A DNA stretch of 64,000 nt from Bacteroidota bacterium. GTDB lineage: Bacteria > Bacteroidota > Bacteroidia > 2-12-FULL-35-15. Both the position numbers and the translations under genes were made by a program. The notes under the pieces were generated by a model. The model had not been told where the DNA came from. It saw only the letters and a program-made list of their open reading frames with translations, and did no database searches. Shown one piece after another: positions 19,028 to 27,524 of this stretch. The DNA is taken from the NCBI GenBank assembly GCA_947469885.1, contig CANIQT010000008.1, forward strand, positions 62,001 to 126,000, given 5' to 3'. Position 1 is the first letter of the stretch. Every line of letters starts with the position of its first letter.

Positions 19028-19072
19028 TTCAGTATTTAGTTTAATAAATCTACCTTACCTGCTGCTCTATGT

Positions 19073-19339
19073 TTTAGCCGTTGTTGGTGTTCTTAAATAT
19101 TAACGAAAACGATGCCTTTGCTCTATCACACATACCGGCTCAAATGTACACAGTACATTTGCCCTCACCTGCAAACGTACGAAATTAAATATCCCGATTT
19201 TTTTTTCGTCACACGTATTTTAGCGGTTGTTAGTTTTCTTAATATTAAGCTTGGTTCGTTTGTTGGTGAAAAACACCAACAAAGGCAGGATTACTGCAAA
19301 TTTTAAACAAAGTAAAATAGAACACCAACAAAGGCTAAA
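19073..19339 (+). mobile_element. MITE-like element, copy A (267 bp, imperfect 20-bp terminal inverted repeats)
   Basis: The left end TTTAGCCGTTGTTGGTGTTC (19073-19092) and the right end (19320-19339) are inverted repeats with one mismatch. Inside lie a hairpin with arms CAAATGTAC and GTACATTTG (about 19141-19161) and a hairpin with arms TTTGTTGGTG and CACCAACAAA round AAAAA (19259-19283). A degenerate second copy of the left end (TTTTAGCGGTTGTTAG) starts near 19218. No open frame, no transposase and no clear target-site duplication are seen. The same sequence recurs at 25138 and 26608. It occupies the 5' region of the GH31 gene. Confidence 0.8.
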
Positions 19340-19414
19340 CAACACAAATTTGTTTTATATTATTTTCTTTTTATTATTATTTTTAGTACTATTACCATCT
19401 CAAATGCTAATAGC

Positions 19415-19597
19415 ATGATTTATGTTTTGAAAATACTCCTTACTCTTTTCATTTTTGATGATTCTATTATTATTGTTCCCTCATACATTTTACTTTTCAT
19501 TTTATCTCCTTTTATTTTTCTTGTTTCTTCTGAAAGTACATTATTAACAGTACATACAAATAAGCGACAAAAGAAAAAGACCAAGCCACGCTTATAG
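19415..19597 (+). CDS. Small membrane protein, paralogue 1 (60 aa)
   Basis: A very hydrophobic 60-residue protein (MIYVLKILLTLFIFDD, then two further hydrophobic stretches), a conserved VSSESTLL motif and a highly basic tail (KRQKKKTKPRL). A paralogue of the same length lies at 23440-23628. The two differ at many third codon positions while the protein pattern is kept, which argues for real coding. Both are preceded by the same 16 bases (ATCTCAAATGCTAATA, here 19397-19412) and both lie just upstream of a T9SS gene. One or two inner-membrane segments with a cytoplasmic basic tail are likely. Function unknown. Confidence 0.6.
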   Translation: MIYVLKILLTLFIFDDSIIIVPSYILLFILSPFIFLVSSESTLLTVHTNKRQKKKTKPRL

Positions 19598-19707
19598 TAT
19601 AGTAGCGATATATTAATTGTAATTGCGTGGCAACCCTGCATTTTTTTAATACCAACATTCTGATTGGGAATGTGTATTTTAATAAAAAAAATTAAAAATA
19701 AAATACA

Positions 19708-20553
19708 ATGAAAAAAATAATTACCACAACCACTATTGTTTTGCTATTTCTCACTAACAGTTTGAAAGCACAAATTACACTTGATACAACAATTACTACA
19801 TGGAATAGTATAGGTTATGATTTTTATACTGTTCAGATAAGTAAGACCGAAACCAAATATTATATTCAGGATACCATTACTAATACGTTCAGTTTATACA
19901 ATATGGATTTCTCTCCATTTATGTTAAACATTCCTGTACCCGAACCTTTTCTGCCCTTTCAATATAATTTTGAAGTTACTTATATAACACGGACACTTTT
20001 CGACTGTGATTCTTCTAATATTGAATTTGCATATAAAGCCGTTGGCAGTGGACAAACTGGCGCCTATAAACCTTTTTATATTATGCGAACAGATGGAACC
20101 CAATTATTCAAACTCGACAGTGCATTGGCTCCTTATTGTTTCGGTTGTCTTAATGGTTCACAGGATATAAGACCTATTCAGAATACTTCGGCAGGTGCGA
20201 AATTGTTTCTTTATTATCCAGTACCCACGAATAGACTTCGTATCTATTCTTTATGCGGAACTTTGCCACAGGATGTTTTTGATTTTACGAATCAAAATAA
20301 ATATTCAATAAAAATATATCCTAATCCAACTTCAGGCTCATTATCTTTTCAAATAAATCTCCCTGATAATATAAACGATTATGAATTGATAATACTGGAT
20401 AATAATGGTAAAGAAATGAAAAGGGAAAAAATAAATTTCGGGGTCAGTAGATATGATATAGAAGTATCAAGTTTCAGCAGTGGTTCATACATTTATTCAT
20501 TGCAAACAAAAAACAAAGCTTGGAAATCAGGCAAATTTATATTAAACAAATAG
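19708..20553 (+). CDS. Secreted T9SS protein of unknown function (cassette 1)
   Basis: 281 residues with a signal peptide (about 1-21, ending LKAQ) and a C-terminal T9SS type A domain (IYPNPTSGSLSFQINLP, ending WKSGKFILNK). The middle (about 25-200) is beta-rich with two cysteine pairs near 158-195 (APYCFGCLNG) and is not recognised. It lies 110 bases after the 60-residue membrane protein and 44 bases before the tail-fibre-like gene, so the three probably form one transcription unit. Confidence 0.8.
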   Translation: MKKIITTTTIVLLFLTNSLKAQITLDTTITTWNSIGYDFYTVQISKTETKYYIQDTITNTFSLYNMDFSPFMLNIPVPEPFLPFQYNFEVTYITRTLFDCDSSNIEFAYKAVGSGQTGAYKPFYIMRTDGTQLFKLDSALAPYCFGCLNGSQDIRPIQNTSAGAKLFLYYPVPTNRLRIYSLCGTLPQDVFDFTNQNKYSIKIYPNPTSGSLSFQINLPDNINDYELIILDNNGKEMKREKINFGVSRYDIEVSSFSSGSYIYSLQTKNKAWKSGKFILNK

Positions 20554-20597
20554 TCAGAAAGTGCGGTGTCAGCACTATAATCACTGACAACAATAAA

Positions 20598-22070
20598 ATG
20601 AAAAAATATTTATTTATATTTTTTATATTGGTTTGTGTAATTGAAATCTCTTTTGCACAAACAACAACAACAAATAATTATCGCCCGTCTTCACCTGCTT
20701 TCAGTGGATGGGATGCAACTAGTCCCAATCCCGGAACTTATGACGTTAAAAATGATTTTAGTTATCCAATCAATTTCTGGACGAACACAAATTGGCATGC
20801 AACACTTGATGTAACTGGTAATTTTAGTATTGGTCAAACATCTAACACCAATTATTTTGGCATAGGTACAACCACACCAGTACTATGGCACAATGGACAT
20901 CACGAAGATATTTTTGTGGCTGTTGGGGCAGGTAATAGCACTATGACCGGACATTACAATAGTTTTATGGGAAACAGTGCTGGAGCTTCAACTTCTGATG
21001 GGGAAAAGTTGACATTTTTGGGATTCGAAGCAGGGAAGGCAAATACTATAGGAAGTTCTAATACTGCTATAGGATACCAGGCGTTTACTTTATCTCAGGA
21101 AACATATATGAATACTGTAGTAGGCTACCAAGCTCTTGGGGGTAGCACTGGTTGCTCGTACTGTTGGGATGGTCACAGTAGCATTAATACCGCAGTTGGT
21201 TTTAAGGCACTTTACAGCACTCAAGCATACGGAGGCTGTGCTTTAGGTTATATGGCAGGTTATTCAAATACAGGTGGTTGCTCTCTTGTTGCAGTGGGTG
21301 AGCAGGCAGCAATGAATAATACTTTAGGAGATGACAATGTAGCAATTGGAGAAGGATGTATGTATGCCAATACAACTTTAGGTGATAATACTGCTGTAGG
21401 TACTGACGCTCTCGCCAATCAAGGCTACACAGGAGCCGAAAAGACAAGTAGCTACAATACAGCAGTTGGAAGAAGTGCTCTTCTTTTAACTAATCCATCA
21501 AGCACTTCAGATGGATATTTAAATACAGGCATCGGAGCTTTAGCAGGGGCAACCAACGTTACCGGTATAGACAATTCTTATCTTGGTTATAAGGCAGACG
21601 GAAGTGCTTCAAATTTGAATAATACATCTGCAATTGGTGCTGGTGCCGTAGTAACAACAGACAACAATATGATATTAGGAAATAGTGCTTTAGAATTCAG
21701 GGTAGGAATAGGTTTATCAGGTGTTGCCGGAGGTGCTCAGGCAAAATTACATGTAGAAAATGATGCAACCCTTCCGGGCGGGATAGGTATTGCTGGCTTA
21801 TTTCATAGTGGGGGGACTGCCCCTACAAGTACAGCTGTTTATGGTTTAAGCGATGCAACAAGCACATATACAAATTACGGTGCACAGTTTTATGCCCATT
21901 ATGGCAGTAACAACGTTGGTGTATATGGCGAAACAACTAAACCAACAACAAATGATGCGTATGGAGTTTGGGGTCAATCGAGTAATGCAGCCATATTAAT
22001 ACAGCAGTATGGGGTGATGCAACAAGTACAACAGGAAAATATAATAATGGCGGAGTTTTTTTATCATTAG
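20598..22070 (+). CDS. Tail-fibre-like surface protein, N-terminal part (frameshifted)
   Basis: 490 residues from the ATG at 20598 (MKKYLFIFFILV), chosen because it begins a good signal peptide. The mature part opens with a domain shared with the truncated protein at 24691 (VKNDFSYPINFWTNT, then VLWHNGHHEDIF). About eight YadA-head-like repeats follow (NTAIGYQA, NTAVGFKAL, NVAIGEG, NTAVGTDAL and similar), which build a left-handed beta-roll in trimeric adhesins. The reading frame is lost between about 21986 and 22010; the last 30 residues here are out-of-frame. Continuation is in the frame of 22142-23152. Intact length would be near 850 residues. Confidence 0.8.
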   Translation: MKKYLFIFFILVCVIEISFAQTTTTNNYRPSSPAFSGWDATSPNPGTYDVKNDFSYPINFWTNTNWHATLDVTGNFSIGQTSNTNYFGIGTTTPVLWHNGHHEDIFVAVGAGNSTMTGHYNSFMGNSAGASTSDGEKLTFLGFEAGKANTIGSSNTAIGYQAFTLSQETYMNTVVGYQALGGSTGCSYCWDGHSSINTAVGFKALYSTQAYGGCALGYMAGYSNTGGCSLVAVGEQAAMNNTLGDDNVAIGEGCMYANTTLGDNTAVGTDALANQGYTGAEKTSSYNTAVGRSALLLTNPSSTSDGYLNTGIGALAGATNVTGIDNSYLGYKADGSASNLNNTSAIGAGAVVTTDNNMILGNSALEFRVGIGLSGVAGGAQAKLHVENDATLPGGIGIAGLFHSGGTAPTSTAVYGLSDATSTYTNYGAQFYAHYGSNNVGVYGETTKPTTNDAYGVWGQSSNAAILIQQYGVMQQVQQENIIMAEFFYH

Positions 22071-22141
22071 GTGCTACGGCAGGCATTAATAACGGAGTAA
22101 TAGCAAAAGTTAAAGCAGGTGCTGGTGCATCAAATTTTGGA

Positions 22142-23152
22142 GTGTATTCAATAGTTTTACCCGGAGTTGTCCCAATGCTTTTTCCAGCAGCAACCGACAT
22201 TGCAGTTTATGGAAATTGTGTGTCAGGCGCAACAGGAGGATTACCTCCTGTTATTCCCGGAACCACGTGGGCAGGATATTTTGACGGAGATGTTAATATA
22301 AACGGGCAATTATTTGTTAATGGTATTTGGACAGCATCTGACCAAATGTTTAAAACAAATGTTGATAGCATTCCGAATTCACTTACAATTATTAAGCAAT
22401 TAAAACCAAAAACTTATTTCATGGATACAGTTAATGGTAATGCTTATGGCATGGTTTTTCCCAAAATGAGACAATATGGATTTTTAGCACAGGACGTAGA
22501 GACAATTCTCCCTGCAATGGTAGCTACAAAACATAAACAAGCAATGGTAGATTCCGCAGGTACAGTAGTACTTCCGGCTGTTGATTATAAAACGATAAAT
22601 TATCAGGAATTCATTCCACTTCTAACAAGAGGAATGCAAGAGCAAAGCATAAAAATGGATTCACTCCAAACAACAAACTCAAAACAAGATTCTATCAACA
22701 AATCTTTGCAACATCAAATTGATAGTATAAAAACAACTAACTCAAATATGCAAGACCAAATTAATCAATTATCACAAATGATAAATGATTGCTGTAGTGC
22801 AAATCATAACCATTCACCAATTAATATGAATAATGGGAATGGAAATATAAATAATTCTACTTCCTCCACAAATATAAAACTAACCGATTCGCAAAGTATT
22901 TCGCTTAGCCAAAACGAACCAAATCCATACTCAGAAATGACAACCATCAATTATTTTTTAACAGAAGAGGTAAGCAAAGCACAAATGTTATTCTTTAATT
23001 CAAATGGTAAACTCATCCAATCTGTAGAGCTTACTCAAAGAGGACTATGTGCTTTAAATGTATTTGCTTCTGATTTATCGAATGGCTTATATACTTATAC
23101 ATTGGTTGTTGATGGAAAAATAGTTGCAACAAAAAAGATGGTGAAACAATAA
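22142..23152 (+). CDS. Tail-fibre-like surface protein, C-terminal part with S74 chaperone and T9SS domain (frameshifted)
   Basis: 336 residues from the GTG at 22142, but the frame is open from 21986 (HINTAVWGDATSTTGKYNNGG), which continues the protein at 20598 after a one-base shift. The region TASDQMFKTNVDSIPNSLTIIKQLKPKTYFM, then YGFLAQDVE, is the peptidase S74 intramolecular chaperone known from phage tail spikes. There it trimerises the fibre and can cut itself off. A coiled-coil stretch (about 170-215, QHQIDSIKTTNSNMQDQIN) and an Asn/Ser linker lead to a T9SS-type C-terminus (ending GKIVATKKMVKQ). It is either a real pseudogene or an assembly error. Confidence 0.8.
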   Translation: MYSIVLPGVVPMLFPAATDIAVYGNCVSGATGGLPPVIPGTTWAGYFDGDVNINGQLFVNGIWTASDQMFKTNVDSIPNSLTIIKQLKPKTYFMDTVNGNAYGMVFPKMRQYGFLAQDVETILPAMVATKHKQAMVDSAGTVVLPAVDYKTINYQEFIPLLTRGMQEQSIKMDSLQTTNSKQDSINKSLQHQIDSIKTTNSNMQDQINQLSQMINDCCSANHNHSPINMNNGNGNINNSTSSTNIKLTDSQSISLSQNEPNPYSEMTTINYFLTEEVSKAQMLFFNSNGKLIQSVELTQRGLCALNVFASDLSNGLYTYTLVVDGKIVATKKMVKQ

Positions 23153-23227
23153 AAAAAGTGCATTAATTATGAAGCACAAAGTATAAAGATGAGATGCTGT
23201 CTTCGACAAGCTCAGGATGACATAACA

Positions 23228-23266
23228 CAAAAAAGCGGTAAGGTTTTAAACCCTTACCGCTTTTTT
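23228..23266. terminator. Bidirectional intrinsic terminator after the tail-fibre gene
   Basis: Arms GCGGTAAGG and CCTTACCGC (23235-23260) enclose an 8-base loop and are flanked by A-run and T-run. It closes cassette 1. Just before it, 23201-23222 carries the common dispersed motif TCTTCGACAAGCTCAGGATG. Confidence 0.85.
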
Positions 23267-23439
23267 GCAATTGTTTTACTAAGTAAAATCACTTAGCAAT
23301 CCTTTGTGGATTGCAATTGCAAAAATTGAAGTATTAGAATTTTTTAGCCCCCCTTTCTTTTCCTTTTCTATTATTAAATAAAGAAAATAATAGTTTCTAT
23401 TTTATTTTTTCTACTTTCGTAATCTCAAATGCTAATACA

Positions 23440-23628
23440 ATGATTTATGTATTAAACCTATTAGTTACTCTTTTTGTATTTGATACTGCATTTATTATTG
23501 TTGTACCCTCTGTTTTTCTTTTTACTTTTTCTTGTTTTATTTTTTTAATTGTTTCTGAAAGTACTTTATTACTTGCATTTGCAAAGGTGAAGCAAAAAAA
23601 GAAGCCCAGCCTCCGTACTTTTTGCTAA
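23440..23628 (+). CDS. Small membrane protein, paralogue 2 (62 aa)
   Basis: A paralogue of the 60-residue protein at 19415: both begin MIYVL, both have a hydrophobic first third, IIIVPS or IIVVPS in the middle, FIFL, and SESTLL before a basic tail (KVKQKKKPSLRTFC here). The 16 bases ATCTCAAATGCTAATA precede both starts (here 23422-23437). Third-position differences between the two copies outnumber changes of amino-acid class, as expected for a translated gene. It lies 55 bases before the next T9SS gene. A small inner-membrane protein of unknown role is likely. Confidence 0.6.
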   Translation: MIYVLNLLVTLFVFDTAFIIVVPSVFLFTFSCFIFLIVSESTLLLAFAKVKQKKKPSLRTFC

Positions 23629-23683
23629 GCGCAAAAACAGGAGGCAAAATTTAGCGTTACTTTACTTTTTTAAAATAAATTCA

Positions 23684-24670
23684 ATGAAAATTCTAATCTT
23701 AATGTTCGGTATTGTTGTGACACTTGCTTCTGCGAGGGCACAAAATCTTGTGCCAAATCCGAGCTTTGAAGATACGGTTCATTGTCCTCAATATACAGAC
23801 GAAGTTCAAGATGCGAGTGGTTGGATGAATTTTGGAAATTCACCTGATTATTATAATGGATGTGCTTCTGGAACAACAACATTTGTAAGTATTCCAAACG
23901 CTGGAGCTGGTTTTCAATATGCTCATAGCGGTGTTGCAATGGCTGGATTAATTACTTGGTCCAACCGTTCAAATGGTTTAAGCCAATTTAATTATAGAGA
24001 AAATATCGGTACCCAATTATCAAATACAATGATTATTGGTCAAAAATACTTCTTTTCATTTTATACCAATTATTCGGGTTATTTAGATGGATGGAGAGAA
24101 GTAGCGTCTGATAAAATTGGATTAAGATTTTCAACAATTCCTTATGATAGTGCAAACCGTCCTCCATTGACAAATTTCGCTCACTTATACTCCAGTGCTA
24201 TTTTAAACGACACGGTAAATTGGATAAAATTATCGGCTTCTTTTATTGCAGATTCGGCATATCAATATGTTGCAGTAGGAAATTTTTTTGACGATTTCAA
24301 TACAGATACTTCAAGTTATGGAAATCCACTTTTTGGCAGTGAAAGTGCATATTATTATGTAGATGATATTTGCGTTAGTACAGATTCCTTGTACAATGAA
24401 ACTTGGACTGGCAGTAATGAACAAAATATTAATAATACCATTTCTGTTTTTCCGAACCCTGCTAATGAGCTATTAAATATTATTTCTCAAAATAGTATAA
24501 AAGAAATAGAAATAACAAACATTGTAGGACAATTAGTTTATTATAATATAACAACCCTTAATAATTGTATTTATCAAATTCCAATAAAAGAAATGATAAA
24601 TGGAGTATACATTATTACAGTTAAAACAAATGGAAGACAATTTAATCAAAAAATTATCAAGAATAAATAA
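23684..24670 (+). CDS. Secreted T9SS protein with NLVPNPSFE-type N-terminal domain (cassette 2)
   Basis: 328 residues with a signal peptide (1-19, ending ARAQ). The mature start NLVPNPSFEDTVHCP, then WMNFGNSPDYYNGC, is a beta-sandwich module often found in Bacteroidota surface proteins, sometimes fused to OmpA. It resembles carbohydrate-binding folds. The C-terminal 75 residues are a T9SS type A domain (VFPNPANELLNIIS, ending FNQKIIKNK). It occupies the same place in cassette 2 as 19708-20553 does in cassette 1, though the bodies are not obviously homologous. Confidence 0.82.
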   Translation: MKILILMFGIVVTLASARAQNLVPNPSFEDTVHCPQYTDEVQDASGWMNFGNSPDYYNGCASGTTTFVSIPNAGAGFQYAHSGVAMAGLITWSNRSNGLSQFNYRENIGTQLSNTMIIGQKYFFSFYTNYSGYLDGWREVASDKIGLRFSTIPYDSANRPPLTNFAHLYSSAILNDTVNWIKLSASFIADSAYQYVAVGNFFDDFNTDTSSYGNPLFGSESAYYYVDDICVSTDSLYNETWTGSNEQNINNTISVFPNPANELLNIISQNSIKEIEITNIVGQLVYYNITTLNNCIYQIPIKEMINGVYIITVKTNGRQFNQKIIKNK

Positions 24671-24690
24671 CAATTTAAACTATAAAAAAA

Positions 24691-25161
24691 ATGAAAAAAC
24701 ATATAACCTATATAATTATCATTTTAATAATGATACTATCAAATTTAATAACAGATGCACAAATATCTAATGGAACAAATGGACCTGGATTTATAACTGA
24801 TTATTGCGGATGGGCTGCCGGGGCTGGACTTAATTTGGAAATAAAGAATGAAGCTATCCTACCAATTAATTTTTATACAAGTACTGGTGCAGGTACACTT
24901 CTTAACCAAAAAATGAAAATAACAGCAACAGCAGCCTGGGCAACAGATGGCTTTGTTGGTATTGGAAGTGCGCCTCCAAATGGCACTACCAACTTTGCAA
25001 CATTTCCTAACTACCGACTTGATGTTGACCAAGGAGACATTAACATTAACATGACAAGAAGAGGTTATAGAATAGGAGACGGGTTTGTTGGAACAAGCAA
25101 TTATGTATTATGGCATAATGGAGACATCACAAATATTTTTAGCCGTTGTTGGTGTTCTTAA
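24691..25161 (+). pseudogene. Tail-fibre-like gene truncated by MITE copy B
   Basis: A frame of 156 residues with a signal peptide (about 1-24). It shares the N-terminal domain of the protein at 20598: IKNEAILPINFYTSTG matches VKNDFSYPINFWTNT, and YVLWHNGDITNIF matches PVLWHNGHHEDIF. At that point (25138) the MITE left end begins, and the last eight residues (FSRCWCS and context) are translated MITE. The beta-roll repeats, S74 chaperone and T9SS tail expected from the paralogue are missing, and nothing homologous resumes after the MITE. It is a remnant of a full-length paralogue. Confidence 0.8.
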
Positions 25162-25276
25162 ATATTAACGAAAACGATGCCTTTGCAGGTGTTTTTCACC
25201 TGCAAACGTACGAAATTAAATATCCCGATTTTTTTCTTCACACGTTTGTTGGTGAAAAACACCAACAAAGGCTAAA
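25138..25276 (+). mobile_element. MITE-like element, copy B (139 bp, short form)
   Basis: It has the same left end as copy A (25138-25157) and a right end finishing GGCTAAA at 25276. This is the compact form, with two back-to-back hairpins. The first has arms TTTGCAGGTG and CACCTGCAAA round TTTTT (25183-25207), the second TTTGTTGGTG and CACCAACAAA round AAAAA. Copies A and C replace the first loop with a longer insert. It cuts the coding frame of the tail-fibre-like gene at 24691. Confidence 0.8.
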
Positions 25277-25308
25277 TTCCATTATTAATATTCATTTTTC
25301 GCATACGA

Positions 25309-26413: not shown

Positions 26414-26607
26414 TCAATGAATCCTTGCTTTCCATCTTCTTTTTTTATGTTTTCTTCAAATGATGCTACTCTTCTGCGCGGTACTCCAAACACATTAAAG
26501 AAAGCATCCATAAATGATTTTGCTTCTGCATCTTCATTAAAGTCGTTTTCCCATTCTTTGGAAAATGTAACTGCTCGTTCTTTTATTTCGTTCCAGCTTA
26601 ACGCCAT
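26377..26607 (-). pseudogene. N-terminal remnant of a MmeI-type (type IIL) restriction-modification methyltransferase
   Basis: A 76-codon frame. Residues 1-65 (MALSWNEIKERAVTFSKEWE, then AEAKSFMDAFFNVFGVPRRR, VASFEENIKK and GKQGFID) match the N-terminal nuclease-side segment of large single-chain MmeI-like enzymes, which are normally near 900 residues or more. Homology stops at the edge of repeat R2b; the last 11 residues are R2b translated. The start codon directly touches the left end of MITE copy C, so the native promoter is gone too. Both the nuclease active site and the methyltransferase motifs are missing. It is a captured fragment, not a working gene. Confidence 0.8.
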
Positions 26608-26938
26608 TTTAGCCGTTGTTGGTGTTCTTAAATATTAACGAAAACGATGCCTTTGCTCTATCACACATACCGGCTCAAATGTACACAGTACATTTGCCCT
26701 CACCTGCAAACGTACGAAATTAAATATCCCGATTTTTTTTTTCGTCACACGTATTTTAGCGGTTGTTAGTGTTCTTAATATTAAGCTTGGTTCGTTTGTT
26801 GGTGAAAAACACCAACAAAGGCAGGATTACTGCAAATTTTAAACAAAGTAAAATAGAACACCAATAAGGGCGAAAAATTAAATATCCCGATTTTTTTCTT
26901 CACACGTTTGTTGGTGAAAAACACCAACAAAGGCTAAA
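26608..26938 (+). mobile_element. MITE-like element, copy C (331 bp, composite form)
   Basis: Bases 26608 to about 26870 repeat copy A almost exactly. Then, instead of ending, it continues with the last ~65 bases of the copy B form (AAATTAAATATCCCGATTTT onward) to GGCTAAA at 26938. So it reads as copy A with a copy B right end appended. It has no coding capacity. The left end abuts the start codon of the methyltransferase remnant. Confidence 0.8.
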
Positions 26939-27016: not shown

Positions 27017-27108
27017 GTTTTTAGAAGACAAGCTTTTCCTCCGATAAAAATAACATATACAACTGTCCTTTCTTTCAATATATCCTCGTTTGTTTGAATA
27101 GAAACGAA

Positions 27109-27339
27109 GTTACTCTTCAACGGAACGAAGTTACTCTTCAAAGGAACTTGGTTACTCTTCAACGAAACATGGTTACTCTTCAACGAAACATTGTTACTCT
27201 TCAAAGGAACTTGTTAATTATTCAACGAAACTTGGTAACTCTTCAACTAAACGTTGAAACTACTCAACGAAACGTGGTAACTCTTCAACTAAACGTTGAA
27301 ACTACTCAACTAAACGTGGTAACTCTTCAAAGAAACTTG
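27109..27339. repeat. 21-bp tandem array, 11 units
   Basis: Eleven imperfect units of the form GTTACTCTTCAACGAAACTTG. Units 8-11 alternate two variants (GTAACTCTTCAACTAAACGTT and GAAACTACTCAACGAAACGTG), giving a local 42-bp period. The unit length keeps frames open on both strands; the plus frame reads VTLQRN-type heptads and the minus frame SLKSN-type heptads. Neither looks like a normal gene, so I treat it as a minisatellite. Confidence 0.85.
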
Positions 27340-27524
27340 AAAAAATGCGGTAATCTGTTTTTTCTGAGGCTTAAAAATTACCTGCTTTTTTGCCCCGAAA
27401 CCATTGAATTTACAGGAGAATTGATGATTTTTTGCAAAAAGCGCAAAAAAATATTTTAGGGTTGACACAATAAATTCCAACTTTTTTCGTTTACTGTATA
27501 TATTAATCCCTAAAAATATAAACT

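Follow-up and report, generated by a model that had tools for sequence, protein, structure and literature searches.

A short open reading frame with a hairpin at its stop codon heads dispersed T9SS/fibre gene modules in a few Bacteroidota genomes

Searches for arrest leaders have relied on four features, an upstream open reading frame (ORF), a hydrophobic N-terminal part, a C-terminal end that is conserved and a stem-loop ahead of the following gene (available text of PMC10987492 and PMC7897499), and the accessible part of PMC10987492 also describes arrest clusters confined to Bacteroidota that end in a proline before the stop codon. More generally, a leader-ORF attenuator is recognized by a short ORF that is translated and runs at its end into an RNA structure under selection. 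In the window, by which we mean the whole stretch of 64,000 nucleotides analysed here, two tandem gene cassettes each open with a small ORF of the latter kind, which carries an N-terminal hydrophobic segment and a conserved C-terminal sequence and has neither sec nor yidC as a neighbour. Judged from its anatomy, we see about an even chance that this small gene is a translated, cis-acting leader that would tune an operon of exported proteins. In the following, W1 and W2 denote cassettes 1 and 2 of the window, whose genome is G000; C3, C4, C15 and C27 are further contigs of this genome, other G numbers are genomes of relatives and L numbers are loci.

Layout of the two cassettes

As the original prediction held, the same three-gene order is repeated in tandem on the + strand, namely a small ORF, a T9SS-type gene and a fibre-type gene; we call this order, with one or several T9SS-type genes, the module. 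Both small ORFs are present in the sequence, one of 60 aa (19415–19597, hydrophobic with a lysine-rich end) and one of 62 aa (23440–23628). They are indeed paralogues with 53% identity, embedded in a direct repeat of 207 nt at 71% identity, and the 16-base leader ATCTCAAATGCTAATA ascribed to both is identical at 19397–19412 and 23422–23437. The conserved stretch extends past the small ORF into a hairpin, which the original prediction did not contain. The middle genes had been described as T9SS proteins that differ, and this holds as well: the products of 281 aa (19708–20553, +) and 328 aa (23684–24670, +) both have a T9SS type A tail with a Por_Secre_tail match and share no significant similarity outside that domain. 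The first represents a family of its own with 275 homologues at E 0.001 and the second belongs to the NLVPNPSFE family with 2044 homologues at the same threshold.

The third genes fared less uniformly. A tail-fibre-like gene does lie at 20598–23152 (+), but not as one ORF: its length cannot be divided by three, and two frames are open, 20598–22067 and 21986–23149, with the frameshift in their overlap at 21986–22067 and both the S74 domain (4.3e-11, above cut-off) and the C-terminal domain in the second frame. Its counterpart in cassette 2 (24691–25161, +) is truncated, as had been stated, to an N-terminal fragment of 156 aa, of which the last ~8 residues are repeat sequence and which holds no Pfam domain. 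The proposed paralogy of the two is borne out for the N-terminal region (37% over 51 aa, E 2e-4), the only part that they share.

The repeat in question is REP-like with inverted ends and lies in the window at 19072–19339 just upstream of cassette 1, at 25137–25277 as a short copy that ends fibre gene 2, and at 26607–26938. It has at least 55 matches in the G000 genome (40 of 97 candidate regions scored). On C27, a weak Y1_Tnp match that stays under the Pfam cut-off (21 vs 23 bits) has two copies of the repeat close by, at ~0.3 and 0.4 kb. We regard the repeat as a putative REP element tied to a Y1-type transposase (RAYT), for which such closeness would be expected. A Y1-type transposase also adjoins the truncated fibre gene in G005 and G034 (loci L053 and L058), with a match above the Pfam cut-off in the former (E 2.5e-5) and below it in the latter (1.4e-3). 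Another repetitive stretch, 27079–27330, lies within an open frame (27094–27459) and comprises eleven copies that overlap and keep register at a spacing of 21 nt.

Upstream of the small ORFs, the octamers TACTATTA (19387–19394, +) and TACTTTCG (23412–23419, +) differ by two mismatches and one mismatch, respectively, from TAnnTTTG, which is the sigma-A −7 consensus of Flavobacterium psychrophilum according to the available text of PMC9723704. The best TAnnTTTG-like octamer lies 18–21 nt before the leader ATG in all nine copies of the small gene examined, and it has at most one mismatch in seven of them (two in W1 and C4) as compared to 2.2 expected from shuffles, with the search window of 14–26 nt set after looking and several of the nine upstream regions mutually related. 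This points to a sigma-A-like −7 box ~20 nt before the small-gene start, with the consensus borrowed from F. psychrophilum and the transcription start itself a prediction. Within the whole G000 genome, ATCTCAAATGCTAATA has three exact sites, each before a copy of the small ORF, and two sites with one mismatch, one of which precedes the fourth copy. The other (C15:75064–75079, L061) has no small-ORF match. Since a terminator-like hairpin of 16 pairs (23228–23267, +) follows cassette 1, the cassettes appear to be transcribed separately; this hairpin is by far the longest of the three terminator-like sites in the region, although their number is no higher than in shuffles (3.4 expected).

Dispersal of the module

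A four-member profile of the small ORF, searched against 148 relatives, gave a match at 0.01 in 8 genomes. A nine-member profile, searched against the 36 genomes of the genus (the order yields the same 36), found ten copies at E 1e-4 in five of them: four in G000, three in G014 and one each in G005, G026 and G034. Each of the ten directly precedes a T9SS-type gene and then a fibre-type gene, and the leader stop is separated from the ATG of the T9SS-type gene by 46–115 nt. The original prediction had been made to depend on the small gene not occurring mostly without the other two and on the order not being unique to the contig; none of the ten copies lies outside the module, and with four copies in G000 and six in four other genomes the order is not confined to one contig. 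The two further copies in G000, at C4:161409 and C3:95436, are full small genes; behind each come at least one T9SS gene and an S74 gene. Two extra matches in this genome (E 0.19 and 0.46) were taken as chance.

Weaker candidates were likewise set aside. Profile matches in G013, G029, G031, G067 and G113 had E values of 0.003–0.008; at 1e-4 those in G013, G029 and G031 vanish, while G067 and G113 stand outside the 36-genome set. The matches in G032, G067 and G113 (0.006–0.008) were taken as chance, for G032 after reading its context, and L059 and L060 were rejected from context. Two RNA models (R1 and R2) were searched as well, and strong matches to either occur only at module leaders; R1 also has weak matches at E 0.4–0.5. 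Nine RNA-model matches were rejected from context, and L157 (R1, E 0.009) lies in a locus without such a module.

Among 5.8 billion proteins, the only entry at E 0.001 is an 81-aa version of the G034 ORF, which is a weak negative because small ORFs are often left uncalled in annotation. A literature search, mostly of papers outside subscription, yielded nothing naming this small ORF. Among the genomes searched, the leader-headed module is found in a few related uncultured Bacteroidota.

Coding signal and stop-codon hairpin of the small ORF

The small ORF bears a coding signal. In codons 2–45 the mean z is 2.34 in frame, as compared to 0.06 and 0.37 in the alternative frames, and 29 of 36 pairs exceed 1.64 in the ORF's own frame vs one of 36 in each other frame, in a test built on the protein alignment whose compared pairs are related. 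Judged by hydropathy only, a 19-residue Kyte-Doolittle window exceeds 1.6 in nine of the ten copies and reaches 1.38 in G014c. Constraint at the amino-acid level, hydrophobicity and the fact that the small gene is never seen without the module would all suit a trans-acting small membrane protein, e.g. one that aids export or assembly of the two proteins that follow, with the hairpin only shaping or protecting the message. We regard this as possible but doubtful; the coding constraint on the hydrophobic half, which it accounts for, also counts against a cis-acting leader. The copy G014c (L057/L085) speaks for the latter: it matches the profile in its C-terminal part only and lacks the hydrophobic half, but retains the lysine-rich end and the hairpin behind a different N-terminal half. 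In itself, G014c is a chimeric leader, in which this less hydrophobic half runs in frame into the lysine-rich end and hairpin.

Small size, hydrophobicity and the basic tail would also fit the toxin half of a toxin-antitoxin pair by which the operon is maintained, and a TsaT match was indeed obtained. At E 0.03 and 14.7 bits vs a cut-off of 80 it is far under the threshold, PADLOC-DB gave no match and no partner, antisense RNA left aside, was identified, which makes a toxin very improbable. A defence or phage origin was rejected, as there was no PADLOC match and one scan of viral contigs yielded no relative of the small ORF.

At the C-terminal end, K53 and K55 are invariant in nine copies and G014c is lysine-rich there as well. 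All four search features named at the outset are present, which raises a leader of the SecM/MifM kind with regulated translation arrest, whose nascent chain would monitor membrane insertion or export and halt translation at the lysine-rich end. Monitoring leaders have a spacer of more than 30 residues after the localisation signal; as read from the alignment, ~38 residues follow the first hydrophobic stretch and far fewer the second, so that the spacer would be short if counted from the latter. The available text of PMC10987492 and PMC7897499 names known arrest motifs, of which the small ORF has none, and the downstream genes encode exported cargo (T9SS-type and S74 proteins) and not sec or yidC. 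We therefore rate such an arrest leader as unlikely. If it existed, the leader would be a nascent-chain sensor of an export route, whose membrane-inserting peptide and lysine-rich end hold up the ribosome within the hairpin as long as insertion fails to proceed, a notion we view with the same scepticism; such a sensor would ensure that a costly exported fibre operon is made only in the right export state, and it would precede exported cargo rather than export machinery.

The hairpin is found at the leader stop codon in both cassettes, as type I in cassette 1 (19585–19631, +, 7-pair stem) and type II in cassette 2 (23609–23645, +, 6-pair stem). The two types were aligned apart because a MAFFT alignment of all ten hairpins misaligned the 3′ arms, and stems were aligned and tallied by hand. 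Across the ten copies, 65 of 70 cells pair and 5 do not, four stem pairs show compensatory changes on both sides, and one of 2000 whole-arm shuffles was as good as the observed stem. For type I alone, 97.9% of the cells pair vs 23–56% when slid. The leader stop codon lies in the hairpin loop in eight copies and touches the stem in the other two; this position in or against a covarying hairpin in ten of ten copies is not what a trans-acting membrane protein would call for. Type I leaders (four sequences) carry a second hairpin (19648–19678, + in cassette 1).

As to what the hairpin does, a simple pattern scan of the + strand found nothing terminator-like at the two leader hairpins. A role as terminator was therefore rejected, and the intrinsic terminator that an attenuator would form in one of two states was likewise not seen. 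In single-sequence folds the next start codon is not clearly buried. Both results count against a cis-acting leader at the step from hairpin to output. Rfam had no match at the hairpins of the window up to E 1 and none at gathering scores at those of eight related loci. Assignment to a known RNA family was thus dismissed: elsewhere in the region there were sub-threshold matches only, and in the related loci tRNA and Flavo-1. The latter (RF01705, 57.3 bits, gathering 42) lies on the − strand just behind a module's fibre gene (L056, 3632–3715).

Partner genes and relation to known systems

The middle gene had been predicted to vary, and three families, recognized by a profile match over the length or by direct comparison, occupy its place in the ten modules. 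One is that of cassette 1 (W1); the NLVPNPSFE family supplies W2, C3, C4, G005, G026, G014b and G014c, and the third comprises G014a and G034, which share 44% identity. All three families are found behind type I leaders and two of them behind type II leaders, which indicates that leader and middle gene have reassorted. While the C4 copy precedes one T9SS gene, three NLVPNPSFE-type genes stand in tandem behind the single leader on C3 (L016, 5681–8640). The T9SS sorting tail exceeds the Pfam cut-off in the middle genes of W1, W2, C3, C4, G014a and G034 and falls just under it in G005 (26 vs 27 bits). As to the suggested role of the middle protein as an effector or binding part, a sub-threshold carbohydrate-binding match in the C3 NLVPNPSFE protein (CBM_4_9, E 0.0015) is a lead only.

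The fibre genes are frequently broken. Four of ten are open, three of G014 and the one of G026, and all four possess the S74 domain; the other six are broken, by a frameshift (W1), the repeat (W2), two in-frame stops (C4) or frame changes and one stop (C3), or are short fragments devoid of the C-terminal domain in the stretches read (G005 and G034, the latter stretch ending with its contig). Altogether, seven of the ten keep S74 (above cut-off) and the C-terminal domain, and three are N-terminal fragments without that part. Eight S74 matches elsewhere in G000 all lie in long open frames (331–1868 codons), seven of which start with a signal-like N-terminus and the eighth of which sits near a contig end; this speaks against sequencing error being behind the breakage in general. 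The T9SS tail of the fibre genes is marginal: fibre gene 1 scores 24.3 bits vs NCBIfam's 23, L083 is below the Pfam cut-off, and L054, L055 and L085 are not among the matches.

The middle/fibre pair also occurs on its own. A profile of the fibre C-terminal domain matched 159 places in the named genomes, and the 80 best of these were retained as loci; for the small-ORF profile (E <0.001), the matches listed include four of these 80, all from G014 or G026. The 80 loci contain 57 C-terminal frames with at least 1 kb upstream and 31 with less. An NLVPNPSFE-profile frame adjoins 29 of the 57, with frame ends −28 to +119 nt apart and one at 320. This number falls to 28 without L097, which was rejected as it matched the sorting tail only, and after removal of three from small-ORF modules (L083, L085 and the first pair of L082) and, as a precaution, of L129 (the one 320 nt apart), 24 of 57 frames among these best 80 of 159 loci remain as pairs without a small ORF. 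The exported pair is thus widespread in Bacteroidota and the small ORF a local addition. These pairs do not need the small ORF, which counts against a trans-acting helper. Together with its leader-like anatomy, they also leave unsupported the original view in which the small gene ranks equally with the other two in a general system; it more closely resembles a control leader than a further building block. The suggested exported fibre system finds backing in domain content only (S74 and T9SS-type tails), and export and assembly of the middle and fibre proteins are putative.

As a cis-acting leader, the small gene would form part of a dispersed operon in which a promoter and a short 5′ UTR are followed by a translated leader ORF of ~60 codons, the hairpin at its stop codon, one T9SS-type protein of an exchangeable family (three on C3) and a fibre-type protein with an S74 chaperone domain. 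A ribosome reaching the leader stop would have to open the hairpin, and the success of leader translation, first of a hydrophobic nascent chain and then of the conserved lysine-rich end, may set how much of the message behind it is read, retained or translated. The operon has spread in copies that diverged, with fibre genes often decaying while leader and middle gene stay open. Such a cis-acting role and a trans-acting membrane protein are not mutually exclusive. Should the leader work in this manner, it would constitute an undescribed unit of leader ORF and hairpin in Bacteroidota, and how an exported fibre operon is controlled could be approached with a simple reporter assay. As middle genes are exchanged between leader types and fibre genes are frequently lost, these operons offer a compact case for surface-protein turnover.

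Compared to known systems, the small gene resembles leader-peptide attenuators and regulatory uORFs such as SecM, MifM and the Bacteroidota arrest peptides in the accessible part of PMC10987492, in being the short first ORF of an operon, in its hydrophobic part followed by a conserved C-terminal end and in the stem-loop between the leader stop region and the next gene. Unlike these peptides, as far as that text describes them, it precedes exported cargo, measures ~60 aa and has a lysine-rich end in place of the named motifs, and arrest is putative here. The fibre proteins share the S74 domain (chaperone of endosialidase, PF13884) with S74 fibres and fall into tail-fibre families by PHROGs, and in a weak alignment to 6f45, a distal subunit of a long tail fibre, the Ser-Asp start and the AQxVExxLP stretch are retained (E 0.24), the Ser-Asp motif being all that was seen with regard to self-cleavage and trimer formation; unlike S74 fibres, they add a C-terminal domain with T9SS-type similarity and sit in bacterial chromosomes. 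The C-terminal sorting domain of T9SS type A cargo (PF18962, TIGR04183) is common to the middle genes and marginal in the fibre genes. Finally, the short palindromic repeat, with many copies and two of them near a weak Y1_Tnp match, is reminiscent of REP elements with Y1-type transposases (RAYT), from which it differs in that the Y1 match on C27 is below cut-off and the mobility of the repeat putative.
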